This document shows positions 1,729 to 10,536 of a DNA stretch of 64,000 bases, in pieces (the first letter of the stretch is position 1; every line of letters begins with the position of its first letter). The stretch covers positions 20,212,001 to 20,276,000 of the forward strand of contig OY540812.1 of NCBI GenBank assembly GCA_961205875.1, read 5' to 3'. Both the position numbers and the translations under genes were made by a program. The notes below the pieces were generated by a model. It had not been told where the DNA came from. It was given only the letters and a program-made list of their open reading frames with translations, and searched no databases. The DNA is from Sialis fuliginosa. Its lineage: Eukaryota; Arthropoda; Insecta; Megaloptera; Sialidae.

Positions 1729-3381
1729 CATGAACGTATAATACAAAATATTTTTCACTACATATTTATAACGTTACGAAATATTGGTTTTGGTCGAAAA
1801 TCTTTATGTTTCAAGACCTCTTGAAAAAAAAATATTTTTAGAGAAACGTCAGTCTGTTGTCAAACTGAAAACAACCGTATAAAAAAACAACTTGACATTT
1901 GATATATGTGCCAATATCTTAAACGTTGACCCCATTTGCATTGGCGTGTTATACAGCAGGCACTTTAGGCAACTGCTCCGAGGAGAAATAAGGCCTCGAG
2001 CTGAGGAAATAAGTAAAATATTGTTTTTTTATTCAACAAAAAGGAATCTCAAATATTAATTCTGCCTGAGGCCTCCGTCAAACATAACGCGCAAAACAAA
2101 CACAAATAAAAAAACAACACAAAATCGAGATAAATTCGCGTTCGAGACGAGACATTAGTTACAAAAACCGAAACGAGTCGTGACTTACCTAAGTAACTCT
2201 CATCTCGTCTTATTATATGTTATCTTAATCTTACTTCTGGATTTACCGAAAATAGAACTTTTCTATTTTTAAATACAAACCGATAATTTTTTTGTTAGAA
2301 ATTGACAGAACAAGTCGTCCTGATTTCAACTACACTAAATTTAAGTCTTTCTGTCTGTATGTCCAGCTAATTAATCGAATGATCTCAATATTGACAGGAT
2401 AAAATAATTTAAAATTTATGTTTGTTCCTTGCGTCGACTTTATGATATGTCATAATATGTTATTTTAATCCGACTTCCAATTTCAATGGAAATAAATTGT
2501 ATAATTTTTGTCTATAATTCGATAATTCAATTGCTAGAAATTAGAAGAGTATTTTCTTTGTGTTTTAAATAAACTTGTTAATATTAGTTGGAAAAATTAA
2601 ATAATATATTATTGTAGTAATTATCTTTAAGTAAATTGGAACCACGTGAATGAACAATAGTCAATGGAAAATACTAAACTAAAATAGACAATGACAACGA
2701 TTTATTTTCTTTACTATGCTTTCAATAATTTACTCTACCTGTTTTAATACAAAGCATCAATGATAATTCAGTTTTCATTTCAAATATATCTGCAATGCAG
2801 TACTGACTACAAAATTCACAATTACACAAAATTGAAAATTCTTTTTTTATTTAAAATTGTGTATTTGAATTACGTTTTATTAAAATTAGACTCGAACGAT
2901 CCATTTACGTACCTATTATTTATTATATTTTCCATATAGTACACTTTTAACAAAATTACGTTTATTATTCATCAATATAAACAAAACAGTTATTTTATAA
3001 AAACCTTCATAATTTTCTATTCTATTCGTTTTTTTTTACTTTTCATCACGTCAGCGTTAGGAATAGTATTAATTTTAGTTGAAAAGTGACCCTACTCAAT
3101 TTTGATGAATATTTTTAGAAAAACAGTCTGTCTGTGTGCTTTCTGTAAAAAAAAATTTGTCATTAATAAAAAAAAATTTGTCATTTTTTTTTATTTTTAC
3201 ATAAAAATTGATATAAAAAAAAGTTTCGATAACAAACGAACTAAATGAATGTTGGTATGTAACTAGTCAAATGATCTAAAAAATGGTTTGAAAAAAATTG
3301 AAATTTGGTGTCTTTGTTCCATCCAAAGGCGCGGTAAAAAATATTAGGTAGTATATGTTTATCAATTAGAGTCCGCGTATA
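1729..3381. other. A+T-rich DNA with decayed repeats
   Basis: There is no convincing gene. A G+C-richer patch at 1940-2085 has weak inverted ends (GGCGTGTTAT and ATAACGCGC) and may be a decayed transposon. Two blocks, about 2219-2310 and 2458-2550, are imperfect direct copies of one another (shared TGTTAT, CTTC, GATAATT and TAGAAATT landmarks). The stretch 2140-2212 shares TTCGAGACGAGACAT and a following TCTCGTC with 20064-20104, so it is an old dispersed repeat. Confidence 0.45.
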
Positions 3382-3468
3382 TACACGGAGAAAAATGAAG
3401 CATGAAATATATACAAATATAGCTGTACCATATGATCAAAAGTTACTAAAAAATATAGTAATTCCAAA

Positions 3469-3708
3469 ACACTTTTAAAATTTAGTGAAATATCTGAAGC
3501 ACGAAAGATACATTACTAACAGACGTATAGTAATCATTAAAGATAGCCATGTTTGAAAGCCTACTATTCAGTTAGTAAAAATGATTATACACTTTAAGAA
3601 TCAGCGAAATATCCGAAGCAGAAAAGATAAATTACTAACCGACGTATAGTAATCATTAAAGTTAGCCGTGTTTGAAAGCCTACTATTCAGTTAGTAAAAA
3701 TGATTATA
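3469..3708. repeat. Tandem duplication, 2 x 120 bases
   Basis: Units 3469-3588 and 3589-3708 agree over most of their length. Each carries GACGTATAGTAATCATTAAAG and ends with CAGTTAGTAAAAATGATTAT. Each also has a TTACTAAC...ATAGTAA inverted pair. The position, just inside the left terminus of the 6.2-kb unit, fits subterminal transposase-binding repeats (inference). Confidence 0.8.
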
Positions 3709-3912
3709 CTTTGTATAATAATATCTTTTAACACTCATTTATGAATATTTATTATTTGCTTAGTAAATGTTATTATTTAGTAGCTAATAAAATTACCTAA
3801 TCTGATTGCAAATTAAAATATATATATAATAATATATATAGCAGTAGTTATTATTTAATATTAGTTTTCTCAATTTTAGAATTTAATTTTGATTATTTTT
3901 TTTTATAATTAT

Positions 3913-4217
3913 TATAATGTATATATATCTGGATTTATTAATTAATAGTAGATTTAGCTTGTAATTTAGTATATATGTGACAAGAATATATATTTGCAAT
4001 ATTTTTAATGCCTCATATAGTAATAAACAATTTATTATTATTGGCTACTAAGTTTATTGTATGTAACAATAAATAATTTATAGTCAATGAAACCAAATTG
4101 GTTAATACTGTTTGAAACATTGAAAATATTGCAAATATACATTCTTGTCACCTATATACTAAATTACAAGCTAAATCTACAATTAATTAAAAAATACAGA
4201 TATACATTTTATAATTT
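3913..4217. repeat. Hairpin repeat inside the 6.2-kb unit
   Basis: The arms 3913-4009 and 4123-4217 are inverted copies. Both hold the run GATTTAGCTTGTAATTTAGT or its complement and the ATATTGCAAATATA core. The loop is about 110 bases. It may be a separate small MITE or part of the host element. Confidence 0.7.
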
Positions 4218-5414
4218 ATGAGCAACTTTATGTATTTATTAGTGATGCACATGATATGTTAAAATAAATATTAAACAAAGGTTAAATTAAATACAATAAT
4301 ATGTAGGTTATACAAATATATTTTATTACGACTATTAAACCTAATTAATGAACAAATAAAAAAAATTACAAAATTTAATAATAATGACTTTAGTTAGACT
4401 TAAAAATGAAATAAGATAACATAAAAATTAAATGTTTTTAAAATGAAAAAAAGTAATTTTTTAATTAAAATTGTAGAAAATATATTTTTCATAAAAATTA
4501 TATTTCCAACCTTTAAAAAAATATATTGTTTCAACTGTTAATCTACAGACAACAGAAGTACAATTTATTGTTTTATAACCATTTTTTGGCTATGTATTCA
4601 TTGCCATTGCCAAGGGGTGTTTTGTATGTTATAAAACCATTACAAATTTTGGGCCATGATAGGCACTTAAATTTTTGAGTTAAAGAATCTATTACTTGAT
4701 AACATTGAAAGTGCTCACTTATACAACATGAAAGTTTTTACATACAGAATGTCCCAAGACTGTGTCAAAGTTCAAGATTTCATTACAAATAGAAAAAAAC
4801 TTTAAATACAAAAGTAGTCATGATAGACAAGCAGCATATTTTTAAAATAGTTACATTTATATAGGCTGTCCCATAAGTGTGTTACAAATCAAAGTTATAT
4901 TTTTTTATATACAATTATATTATTGCGATATTACATCAAACATTTACAAAATTGTATTCTTTGTACAGGTTGTATCAAAACTCTTAACTTAATTTTTTTC
5001 AAAATTTTCAAATAGAACAGCCTATATATTTTCACATTTTCGAATTGTCTATTCAATTCTAAACACATTTTATAAACTATGTACTATACCTAAATCTAGC
5101 CTTTAAATAATTATTTGGAAGATTTTTAAAATCTTAACATGTTTTATAAAAACAATACAACTTTATTATAATTCATAAAACAATTCGTTAGAACTAACAA
5201 ACTTTAAAAACATAAAAATCTAGGAATTAAATAAACAAAATGGTACAAAAAAGTTAATTTCTTTGTTCAAAATGCCCACCAGCGGCGTTAATTGTTTTCT
5301 GTTAAAAATATTTTTGGCATATGCTCTATTATTGCATTATTACATCAAACATTTACAAAATATAAAATAACAAAACTAAACCTTTTTAATAAACTTAATG
5401 TAAAGTATCTACTG

Positions 5415-5810
5415 CAGCGTTTCTCAACCTTTTAGTATTTACGACCCAATTTTCAATCACAATTCTCATCGCCCCCCCCCCCCCCCCCTCGCCCCTCATA
5501 CAATAATTTCCACTGAAATCGTGCTGTAATTGTAATATAATATTGAAAATATAATAATAATTTAATATTGATAAGTTAATTATGAAATACATTGTGCAGT
5601 AAGTACTGATACAACCCTTTTTATAAGTGTATTATATCAGTGTAAATGTAAACGTGCAGTTTATTTTTTATTATGTCAGAATGAATTTTATTACTTTTAT
5701 TTCAATAATATTTTTTTAAATTTTTTCTCGATATGCTCGCGCTCCCCATTTAGTTTTATCACGCCCGGCGCCCCCTTTGAGGGGCGCGTCCCACAGGTTG
5801 AGAATCGCTG
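5415..5810. mobile_element. Non-autonomous hAT element (Buster/SPIN-like)
   Basis: The ends CAGCGTTTCTCAACCT and AGGTTGAGAATCGCTG are inverted copies with one mismatch. A perfect 8-base direct duplication ATCTACTG flanks them (5407-5414 and 5811-5818), with TA in the middle as is usual for Buster-type hAT insertions. Ends of the form CAGNGNTTCTCAACC are typical of SPIN-like elements (established knowledge). There is no transposase. A C-homopolymer of 17 bases sits at 5472-5488. The perfect duplication shows that the copy inserted into the 6.2-kb unit after that unit was in place. Confidence 0.92.
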
Positions 5811-6039
5811 ATCTACTGTAAAGTGCAAGTATAATTTTTATTAAGTATTTTATCTATTAAGACTTTTTGTACTTATTTGTTATAAAACGTTTAATTTATT
5901 TAATTAATAATAATTTAATTTCTCAAAAACACAAACATTTATTTTAAAATAACAAATGGTTATTGCTAAACAAACTAATAAACGAAATAGTTAGATAATT
6001 AGTACTAATTTGACAAGTTTAACCAAATAAATATAATCA

Positions 6040-7604
6040 TTAAAAATAACTGGAAACGTATAAATCTTCTATTGCTTTCAGAGTACCAACAAATATTGGA
6101 AATGGTTGCAATGGTAGTCTTAGTATATCCAGTTCAATTCTCTTTTGTTTTATAATATTGTCAATAATTCATCGTTCTGCAACAAATTAAAATCGCATAT
6201 TAATATCTTAAAACATCGAAATAAATATATTGTGGTGGTTTCTTAATTATTATAGTTATAATTACCGGAAAAACTAGGAAAAGTCCTTCTCTAGCCACTT
6301 GTACTGTTGCTCGACGTTTTTTATTGATTATTTTTCTCTTTACCCTGTTTTCGCTGCTAACGGTTGATTGTTCATTGTTTGGAATATCTATGTATGTAGT
6401 ATACATCAATGTCGGTAAAATATATAAAACAAGAAAATCTTGTGTAACTGAAAAATTAATTTTCATGAAAATTGCAAAATGTGAAAGAAGAGTGACATTA
6501 TGAAGTAAGCTAATATAGAATACCTGGTTGAAGAAATTCCAACAACTCTATCAATTCACGATCATTGTTATTTGCATTTATTTCGTTACTTCTTAGTAGT
6601 TCGATCAATTTGTATTTTATAAATGGCCTCCTTTTTAAGTTATTTTCTATTTCACAGTAATTCTTTGAAAAATCATATGTTAACTGGAAAGATCACAATT
6701 GATTTAATAGTAAAAATTCAAGAACGGTTCCATTATAATTTTATATAAAAATATTTTACCAGTAGGTGTCCAACAGGACTTTTTAAGCATCGAAATTTGT
6801 TAATGTACTTTTGGACACTCTAATTTTGTGTACTTAATAAATTACGTCTCGTTTCATAGGTTTTATTTATTTTTGAGTGTTTCAGTAGGTTGTAAATTAT
6901 TTTGCAGCCTCTGCATCCTGTTTGCAGTATCTGAAAAAGGTTTTTATCGAGATTGATGAATGATAAATTAATGAAAGATTAATAAATTAACTAATAATAT
7001 TATTACCTTCATTAGAAGATGAATTACTTTCAATAACGGGTAAATTCAAATCATTTGAAGATCATTGAGAATCTTGAATGATACCGTCTTTACGCAAAGT
7101 TTTTTTATAGTTATAATGCTGGCATAGTTTCCTTTTAGGTAAAACTCTGTCGTATCTGTTGCATTCGTATGGTATGTAATATGTGTATTTATAATGTTTT
7201 TCTTTTTGAAAACATTTGTTCTCATCTTGTTTAAGAAGCAAAGCACGATCTTCAGTGGTACTTCTTAAAAAATTGCTCCAAATTCTGTTAAGCACAAAAG
7301 TTGTATTTTTTTACCTTAAATTAAAATTAAAATTTTAATTTCTTACTAATTCTGAAATATCTTGATCTGTGATATTTTCACCCGCATCGTCATCATCATC
7401 AGAGTCTATATTTTCTTTTGCATTATTATTTTCTAATTCGCCGCAATCAACTTTAAAATTGTTTGAATAAATTTAATTAAATTTAATTATTTTCTTTATT
7501 TACGAGCCACTCCCTTAAATAAAAACGAAACAATTATAGGTCTACCTCGTCTGTAATAATATTCTCCACTTCGTAATCATCAAATAAGTCACATGAAGGT
7601 ACCC
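6040..7604 (-). pseudogene. Decayed multi-exon gene of the 6.2-kb unit, family unknown
   Basis: Read on the minus strand, seven blocks have exon character: 7604-7546, 7450-7347, 7284-7007, 6930-6760, 6683-6524, 6447-6266 and 6176-6040. Most are bounded by TTTCAG-type acceptors and GT donors. The joins of the last five keep frame across introns (1-2, 0-0, 1-2 and 0-0 phases), which chance would rarely give. Visible protein features are an acidic run (SDDDDDAGE), a lysine-rich stretch with two cysteines (ECNRYDRVLPKRKLCQHY), a basic block (NRVKRKIINKKRRATVQV) and a C-terminus ending YVSSYF before TAA at 6040-6042. Lesions: an in-frame TGA at 7062-7064, a frameshift plus stop in 6760-6930, a frameshift in the last exon, and phase clashes among the first three exons. 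A good donor (AG followed by GTAAGT) at 7980 hints at an upstream exon; the start codon is not found. I recognise no transposase motif; it could be an accessory or transposase gene of the element. Confidence 0.55.
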
Positions 7605-9608
7605 CTGTACAAATAGAAAAAAAATAGAACAATAAATAATAATGCGAAAGAAAAAAAAACTAAGTACCTACAAAATTAATTATAGTTTTATGTATTAATA
7701 AATTAATAAAATGTAAGTACTAAATTTGTAATTAATATTTTTATTATTAAATTATTAGATCAACAAAATACACTTTCGTTTCAACTGGCGGTGTCTATAT
7801 TTCTAAACACATAACATACATAGATATAATGTATTAATAATATTAATCAGTGGTGATGCGTGATATTTTTACTTATTGTAACTGAAGCATATTTTATTAA
7901 ATTAAATTAAACACACATTGCAGTATAGAAAAATATTTTTTTTGTCAAACGAGTCAAACAAGAAAAACAAAATACTTACCTATAAATATGGTTTTTCATT
8001 TATTAATATTTTTCTATTACCGAAAAATATTATTTGTAATAAACTATATATTATGCGTTTCAGTTACTAAAAAAGTATTTAATTATTAATACAACATAAA
8101 GCAAAAATTATCATATTTATTTTCAAGAGATAAGAAACATTACAATACAACTGTTTGCAAGTATGTGTGTCTGTCTCTCTCTAGAGCGAAATCACTTAGA
8201 CGCGGCGTCTCTCTCTGATTCGGATTATATGAAAGCTTCATCACTGATTTCAATACTGTATAATTAATGATAAATAATTACCTTCAAATTATGGAATTAA
8301 ATGTGCTTAATCCCATGACTTTAGTAACTTTATTATATCGACTTCCATAGTAATATTAGTAAAAATCACTTCACTCTTATTGTAAGAAAAAATGACCGTT
8401 GAAGAACCTGGTACCGACAGACAACAGGAATATAAAATATTATAAATATACAATGAAACTGTTCTAATATTTAATATTCGAAATCACTTTCATCAAAGTA
8501 AAACTAACCGTTAAAGCACGCTATACTGACAATAAAATATAAAATATTATAAAAAACGTATTTTTTTCAAGACAAACAAATAGGTACATCACTATAATGC
8601 CAGTCAAAACGATACTGGTTTGTTGCTATGCATTTAGGCGCGCGCGAACAAAGGAATTCAATTTTACTAACTAGATAGTAATAAGTATATGCATTTTATT
8701 AAATAATTGCGAATAATAAATGTAGTATTAATATAGAAATCCATTAGTACATACACTTCGTACTAACGCATATAAGAATTTATTATATAATTTGGATGTA
8801 GTAATTTAACCGAAAAAAAACAGTGTTTTTAAAATAACATCGTCGAACTAATTGTAAATATCAAATGAAGATTCTACAATATTTTTATTCTGCATTACAA
8901 AGACTGTGCGTGGGTATTGATGAGATGAGACCAATTGTATAGATAATATCCATACATATAATATGTTATAAACATTATTTTAATTACAAATCATACTCAT
9001 ATAATTTTTTATTGCAATACTGCCACAACAAAAATTAACATTTTAGGAGAAATATATATGATAAAAACCTCTTGTAATTGAGTATATTTATAAATAATAT
9101 TACAGATAAAGAACGATTCATTAATTATCACTATAATATATAACAAATGTTTATTAAATTGGCTATTTGACAAGTACAACTTATTAACATTTAAAAACGT
9201 TACTCGTGTGCTGAAATATATTTACTGACCGTAGTCAAGAATTTATTAAACGGTTAGTAAAATTTCTAGCACAGTTTATGAACCATGCTGCGGCTTTCTC
9301 AATCACAATATTTATTACATATTTTGACTATACTCATACTTGTACTTTTTACTATCTGCTATATAGTAAAATGTATATACTACTGCATACGAATAGTTAT
9401 TATAGTTTATTGTGAGATAGGAAAAATTACTGAGCCTTCAAGTAATTAATAAAATTAGAACTGTACTTTATAAAATTTTGAATTGTGAACATTCCTATTT
9501 TATAAAATTTACAATCCTTATTGCAATAATTTACAGACGAATTGTAATTTTTAATTAAATATTATAATTTATAATTAGGAATTGTAATTTATCCTAAAAT
9601 TCGAGTCC
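7605..9608. other. Right part of the 6.2-kb unit, mostly non-coding
   Basis: I find no convincing exon beyond a possible one ending at 7980 on the minus strand. A short CT-rich patch (8168-8215) and a GCGCGCGCG patch near 8640 lie upstream of the minus-strand gene and could hold its promoter (inference). TTACTAACTAGATAGTAA at about 8665 and GGTTAGTAAAA near 9240 echo the left-end motifs. Confidence 0.4.
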
Positions 9609-9627
9609 CATTTTTCTCCGTGTACTA

Positions 9628-10536
9628 CAGACTTTTCATCGGCCGATAGTTTGAACGGGTTCGAGCTGCAAACCGATTAAACAATTAATTAAATAATCAC
9701 ATATCCTTCGTAACTTCTATAGCCAATGACAATCCTACGTAATGACATTTCATTAACTATCGGCCGACTAATAGATTGGTAATGTGCGTATTCATATAGC
9801 ATGCCAGTCGGCCGATAGTTGGCCAACTTCTTAATCAAATGGAAATCGGCCAACCCTTTTATTTAGTCGGCCGACTTTCAATCGGTAGATGTGTGCAGTT
9901 CCATATATCTTCATCAGTGCCGGCTTTAGCGAATCTGGCGCCCTGGGTGAGATTTATTTTTTCGCCCTCTCTCCCCCTAAAAAAATGTTAAAAAATCACC
10001 AAAAATGTCAATTAAAATTGATAAATTAACAAATAAGTTGAATAAGTCATATCTCAGCTTGGCGCGATCCTACAGACTCAAACTTTTTTTTTAAATATAG
10101 CTTACATCATTAACTTTAAGACTATCAAATGCCCTAAGACCGTCGAGACCTCCTTCCCCTATTATGAACAAATTAAAATTGATAAATCAACAAACAAGTT
10201 AATTAGTTAGTATCTCAGCTAATACCTTATTAAAGGTTTTCTGGGTTGCTGAATAAGTATTAGTTAGTTAGCAGCTATCAAATAATCGATTTTTTTACAA
10301 ATTAACATTGTTTATATTTAGCTATATTTTTTGCTTAATCTGGTTTAACTGATCGACAAAAAATTTAAAGAAAAAAAAGTTTACTCAAAAAAGTGATTTA
10401 TGCTCCATTGTGCGCCGCCTCACCTAGCCTGGTACTTCGGGTGGTCGCACTGGTTCACCCCCTCCCCCCTAAAGCCGGTACTGATCTCCATGCCAATTGT
10501 CAAACAGATCAAGCTATCGGTGGACTAAAAAATCTG
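9628..10536. mobile_element. MITE with TCGGCCGA motifs, split by a hAT
   Basis: The ends at 9628 (CAGACTTTTCATCGGCCGATAG) and 10536 (reverse complement of CAGATTTTTTAGTCCACCGA) are related inverted repeats flanked by TA on both sides (9626-9627 and 10537-10538), as for Tc1/mariner-type insertion. Without the hAT inside it would be about 330 bases. The palindrome-like motif TCGGCCGA or a close variant occurs about five times (near 9640, 9759, 9810, 9848 and 9869). The left end lies only three bases from the 6.2-kb unit. Confidence 0.65.
9915..10483 (+). mobile_element. Non-autonomous hAT element, copy 1
   Basis: The ends CAGTGCCGGCTTTAG and CTAAAGCCGGTACTG are inverted copies with one mismatch. 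The flanks ATCTTCAT (9907-9914) and ATCTCCAT (10484-10491) are an 8-base target duplication with one difference. There is no coding capacity. A second copy in the same orientation lies at 36869. The insertion is inside the MITE 9628-10536, hence younger. Confidence 0.88.

Follow-up and report, generated by a model that had tools for sequence, protein, structure and literature searches.

Relationship to known transposons

The En/Spm transposon has CACTA ends and a 3-bp target duplication, and dSpm elements are its deletion derivatives. Transib elements duplicate 5 bp of their target, unlike the TA found in this study. According to PMC12730594, the CMCT clade comprises EnSpm/CACTA, Mirage, Chapaev, Transib, Plavaka, ESTA, and Lanisha, together with RAG1, and is marked by the residues D-D-C(2)C-H(3-4)H-E, by CA..TG ends, and by 2-5-bp duplications. 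ESTA are described in the same text as fungal EnSpm-like transposons with TA duplications. SmTRC1 and its animal CACTA relatives have CCC ends and 2-bp repeats (PMC1636069), and Repbase files Chapaev and Mirage under EnSpm (PMC4455052).

Here, we analyzed a stretch of 64,000 nucleotides from Sialis fuliginosa (hereafter, the window), which contains a 6.2-kb element with terminal inverted repeats (TIRs). Very probably, this element is one of at least three genomic copies of a DNA transposon that kept its ends and a broken accessory gene, in which the transposase core is not detectable, and for whose movement a related transposase of the CMC clade, with a predicted RAG1-like fold, likely acted in trans. 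The element resembles the CMCT clade in the residue set and RAG1-like predicted fold of homologous transposases, in its 5'-CA..TG-3' ends, and in its 2-bp TA flank, and is unlike it in the predicted C-terminal BAH-like domain. With ESTA, compared by its published description, the element shares TA at both ends and an EnSpm-like transposase, whereas that description reports ESTA from fungi. It also shares an animal CACTA-related transposase and 2-bp direct repeats with SmTRC1 and its relatives as presented in that source, but their ends begin with CCC and those of the window element with CACGG.

Element boundaries, target site, and genomic copies

The preliminary description reported perfect 16-base inverted ends, and these were found to be exact at 3382-3397 (plus strand) and 9609-9624 (minus strand), the sole exact matches within the window; perfect pairing between the two ends breaks off after 16 bases. 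When up to 3 mismatches were allowed, the 16-mer had 4 matches in the window versus 1.16 expected, so the two additional 3-mismatch matches are at chance level. The boundaries are as follows.

3382..9624, no strand: whole element, 6,243 bp including TA at each end (exact inverted ends and two further full-length copies)
3384..3397, plus strand: left TIR, CACGGAGAAAAATG (exact-match search, end comparison)
9609..9622, minus strand: right TIR (exact-match search, end comparison)
3382..3383, no strand: left TA, likely target duplication (TA flanks in paired elements)
9623..9624, no strand: right TA, likely target duplication (TA flanks in paired elements)

The 16-mer occurred exactly 135 times (63 forward and 72 reverse) in the 392-Mb assembly of 20 contigs, and a control pattern made of the same letters read backwards occurred in neither orientation. 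Among the 100 of these 135 places that were listed, two further pairs of ends lay 6.24 kb apart, besides that of the window copy on contig C4. They bound L017 (contig C6; 6,242 bp), which aligns along the whole window element at 99.66% identity with 21 differing positions, and L018 (contig C8; 6,244 bp), which does so at 99.92% identity with 5 differing positions. The preliminary description had proposed a search for copies with both ends 5-7 kb apart; L017 and L018 are such copies among the listed places, so that three copies is a minimum. The flanks of different copies (1.1-1.5 kb) had in common only pieces of up to 43 bp, at E values of 0.03 or worse, which indicates that similarity stops at the element ends. 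Thus, the same two ends enclose the same interior in unrelated flanks, and the earlier claim that they delimit one unit holds: 3382-9624 is a real TIR element with at least three near-identical copies in the genome. In L018, a 342-bp tandem duplication (positions 916-1590, 99.7% identity) takes in its left flank plus the initial 187 bp of the element, and is either a real local event or an assembly artefact.

We compared 17 paired elements, consisting of the window copy, L017, L018, four members of the L019 family described below, and ten others. TA was present on both sides in 16 of the 17, at places located by a pattern that itself contains TA. Beyond the TA, one pair (L109) had a 5-base match, and no 3- or 4-base match was found in any of the 17. 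TA is more likely to belong to the target than to the TIR, and the TIR is therefore more likely 14 bp, CACGGAGAAAAATG. From the earlier proposal of a 16-base TIR with a TA duplication, the TA target is retained as the likely reading and the TIR is shortened by the TA; we infer a TA duplication at the element ends. Of the 16 other paired elements, 15 have the termini CACGG..CCGTG seen in the window copy. In L040 the first base is altered at one end, and in L035 one end reads CATGG, which still begins with CA.

An inverted partner lay up to 9 kb inward for 25 of the 40 exact ends tested (with up to 2 mismatches over 15 bases), compared with 0 of 40 for the reversed pattern and 3 of 40 in direct orientation; 15 of the 40 had no inverted partner at up to 2 mismatches. 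The 100 listed exact ends were divided into B type (36), A type (35), other types (15), ends closest to the window right end (six, of which three are the three copies and the rest are weaker), ends like the window left end (four, one being the L018 duplicate), and ends like the L019 left end (four). Ends without this interior, which the preliminary description had regarded as evidence against a single element, do occur, but they leave that element intact since several families share the ends. One set of ends is therefore common to several families.

Six short elements with the same ends (L020, L021, L022, L041, L042, and L046; 164-457 bp) form at least two subfamilies, of A and B types, and are probably MITEs belonging to the same transposase system. 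Among the A-type MITEs, L020-L022 (217-221 bp) match the final 57-59 bp of the window element at 88-92% identity. The shared ends link a set of short repeats in this genome that might otherwise be filed as unrelated. The 16-mer had 8 single matches in viral contigs, which were treated as chance, Rfam and tRNA scans of the window gave no match, and a text search of the literature for the end sequence returned papers whose listed titles look unrelated.

Transposase remnant and classification

A profile built from the C-termini of 36 homologous transposases had a single match past the inclusion threshold among the 1,436 open reading frames of the window.

4576..4737, minus strand: last transposase exon, end of the BAH-like domain (profile of 36 homologous C-termini, E = 4.3e-10)

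With a profile of the whole transposase, nothing else in the window reached the inclusion threshold, and no catalytic core was found. The tie of the window copy itself to the transposase thus consists of this 54-aa exon and of an accessory protein 30% identical to that of L019, another element with the same ends.

L019 spans 5,846 bp. Its reverse strand encodes the accessory protein and, after it, the latter half of the transposase, which does not include the part bearing the first two catalytic residues. An extent of 8,806 bp for L019 was considered and rejected, as its sister copies L107 (4,138 bp), L108 (5,875 bp), and L109 (4,250 bp) end at the inner site. L107 and L109 have kept the ends and lost the transposase, and L108 gave no transposase match either. 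As a query, the transposase fragment of L019 found 12 proteins at E <= 1e-3, and a 13-row profile matched 250 proteins. The 120 listed of these 250 include proteins of aphids (the pea aphid among others), of parasitoid wasps, and of a thrips, a longhorn beetle, and a fish; the nearest named proteins were mostly from insects.

Among the proteins found, the one closest to the L019 fragment (positions 2405-3184, minus strand) came from the gall fly Eurosta solidaginis, at 68% identity. In a quick tree of one region, from which no support values were read, L019 grouped with the Eurosta protein, followed by wasp and metagenome sequences. The likeness could reflect kinship or transfer, and we make no claim of horizontal transfer.

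Catalytic columns were counted in 53 aligned homologues, with rows chosen for coverage. The two Asp columns held D in 48 and 51 of the 53 and the two Cys columns C in 50 and 51 of them, whereas the pair of His columns and the final Glu column were invariant (53/53). The homologues therefore carry the full set of D, D, and E, in which C(2)C and H(3-4)H stand between the second D and the E; the window copy does not contain this region. Pfam Transposase_21 gave sub-threshold matches in two of ten homologues scanned (P0092, 24.7 bits against a cut-off of 28.6; P0072, 19.6 bits) and no match in ten other homologues, and a PDB sequence search with the 13-protein alignment also gave no match.

The element is placed in the CMCT clade through the transposase of its relatives, and represents a new CMC-like family. 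We did not file it as strict-sense CACTA because its ends read CACGG and Transposase_21 stayed below the Pfam cut-off; strict-sense EnSpm/CACTA elements would show a CACTA core at the ends and a 3-bp match, both of which were absent from this set of paired elements. An orphan repeat has in this way become a member of a RAG1-related transposon group.

The preliminary description presented an unclassified TIR element with its own spliced gene, and suggested that it may belong to a DNA transposon group that is undescribed or poorly known. The single TIR element and the remnant of a spliced gene were borne out, but a position outside known superfamilies is very unlikely: although the ends read CACGG and Pfam scans of the window pieces and of L019 gave no family above cut-off, the remnant retains the final exon of a transposase family that bears the catalytic signature of the CMCT clade, and whose homologues carry the full residue set and a RAG1-like predicted fold. 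Another superfamily with a TA target, such as Tc1/mariner or a Harbinger relative like PHISTA, might have captured a piece of a CMC transposon, which would agree with the TA flanks and with the TA duplications given for PHISTA in PMC12730594. This origin is highly improbable, given that the L019 family joins the same ends to a CMC transposase fragment and the same accessory protein, and that Pfam scans of window pieces, L019, and homologues detected no mariner or Harbinger domain, the core of the window copy itself being missing.

Predicted fold and BAH-like domain

RAG1, the recombinase by which vertebrates assemble antibody genes, was the top structural match for the predicted models of two homologues. 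The transposase family is thus predicted to adopt a RAG1/Transib-like fold, and it differs from Transib and RAG1 in sequence, with identities of approximately 10-13%. The structural lists rank only Foldseek matches, and absence from them was not counted as exclusion. The C-terminal part of the transposase is predicted to be a BAH-like domain, its model having the BAH fold. A role as histone reader would call for an aromatic cage that binds methyl-lysine; aromatic residues were conserved at positions 595 and 628 in the 36 C-termini, but could not be superposed on the cage positions.

As far as the literature was covered, which was incomplete and provides weak evidence, no link between a BAH domain and a CACTA/EnSpm-type transposase was found, and the papers checked that combine bromo-adjacent homology with transposon terms concerned no transposase in this connection. 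Of all features of the new CMC-like family, this domain is the one of greatest interest. If real, such a domain on a RAG1-like transposase would offer a testable case of direct chromatin sensing. More tentatively, and in our view less likely than not, the family might represent a widespread animal CMC lineage in which fusion of a RAG1-like core with a BAH domain yields a transposase that itself reads chromatin and inserts at TA, with the window element as a recent passenger. A BAH-bearing transposase of this kind would be a one-protein parallel to RAG1 with the PHD finger of RAG2.

Accessory gene

The remaining coding sequence of the element lies on the minus strand and is arranged as follows.

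6040..6173 (approximate), minus strand: accessory exon G, one in-frame stop (homology to L019; stop identical in three copies)
6267..6395 (approximate), minus strand: accessory exon F (homology to L019)
6526..6684 (approximate), minus strand: accessory exon E (homology to L019)
6758..6918 (approximate), minus strand: accessory exon D, one in-frame stop (homology to L019)
7006..7280 (approximate), minus strand: accessory exon C, one in-frame stop (homology to L019)
7346..7452, minus strand: accessory exon B (open frame and splice-like signals only)
7546..7605, minus strand: accessory exon A (open frame and splice-like signals only)
8284..8358, minus strand: tentative first exon, two in-frame stops (likeness to the L019 first exon by eye only)

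From 6040 to 7280, the exons align collinearly with the L019 accessory protein, with a BLASTP E value of 8e-19 at 30% identity and a phmmer score of 56.2 bits, compared with at most 7.8 bits for 100 shuffled sequences. This collinear homology argues for the gene remnant with several introns noticed in the preliminary description. The five in-frame stops in the accessory exons were identical in the window copy, L017, and L018, and across the exon DNA tested, the three copies differed by a single change, located in exon E of L017.

In a protein database search, none of 1,675 candidates matched the joined accessory protein at E <= 1e-3, and a Pfam scan assigned it to no family above cut-off. A host gene captured by the element, with an incidental match of the transposase exon, would account for such a protein; this is nevertheless most improbable, since a homologue of the accessory protein adjoins the transposase fragment in L019 and also occurs in L107, L108, and L109.

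Mobilization of the element

The window copy is a non-autonomous derivative, with five in-frame stops and no catalytic core found. Because these stops are common to all three copies, the copies were already defective when they spread, which points to a transposase acting in trans; together with the lack of a detectable catalytic core, the common stops make mobilization in trans likely. The low divergence among the three copies indicates recent movement, and hence that a RAG1-related transposon group has moved recently in this genome. We suggest that the catalytic exons were lost before this recent spread, that a full-length relative encoded elsewhere may recognize the CACGGAGAAAAATG ends, and that it would cut and paste the element at TA sites, duplicating the TA. 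Among the loci examined, none was found to hold an intact autonomous element.

By analogy, the window element likely behaves as a dSpm-type deletion derivative of a CMC-clade transposon. Like dSpm beside En/Spm, it kept its ends, lost transposase exons, and was likely moved in trans, and an accessory protein accompanies the transposase as in En/Spm, but this protein has no shown relation to TNPA. Similar behavior was seen in the L019 family, in which L107 and L109 keep the ends without a transposase.

An autonomous element still moving itself would fit the few positions (5 and 21) at which the two other copies differ from the window copy, and is exceedingly unlikely in view of the five in-frame stops in all three copies and the absence of a catalytic core in the window. 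For the window copy itself, these same two findings rule out autonomy, except in the case that the missing exons are located beyond its ends. It is scarcely credible that the three copies are not mobile and arose by segmental duplication or assembly error, as the local tandem duplication of left flank and end in L018 might suggest, because, in the flanks that were compared, similarity does not extend past the ends, and because elements with other interiors, 217-bp MITEs among them, have the same ends.

Other features within and beside the element

Two further features were identified within the element.

3474..3709, plus strand: subterminal 119-bp tandem duplication (91-93% identity)
5407..5818, no strand: nested hAT-type MITE including its 8-bp duplication, the MITE itself at 5415-5810 (ends and duplication checked)

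The tandem duplication agrees with the subterminal repeats mentioned in the preliminary description. The nested MITE has the ends CAGCGTTTCTCAACCT and is flanked on either side by a perfect 8-bp duplication, ATCTACTG. It lies inside the full-length alignments of L017 and L018, indicating that it was inserted before the copies spread. Near the left end, positions 3911-4215 form a large imperfect inverted repeat of approximately 305 bp, which matches its own reverse complement at 81.6% identity and may be a nested foldback element. To the right of the element, at 9640-9890, there are several occurrences of cggccgat and closely similar motifs, as judged by eye, and this region looks like another repeat.
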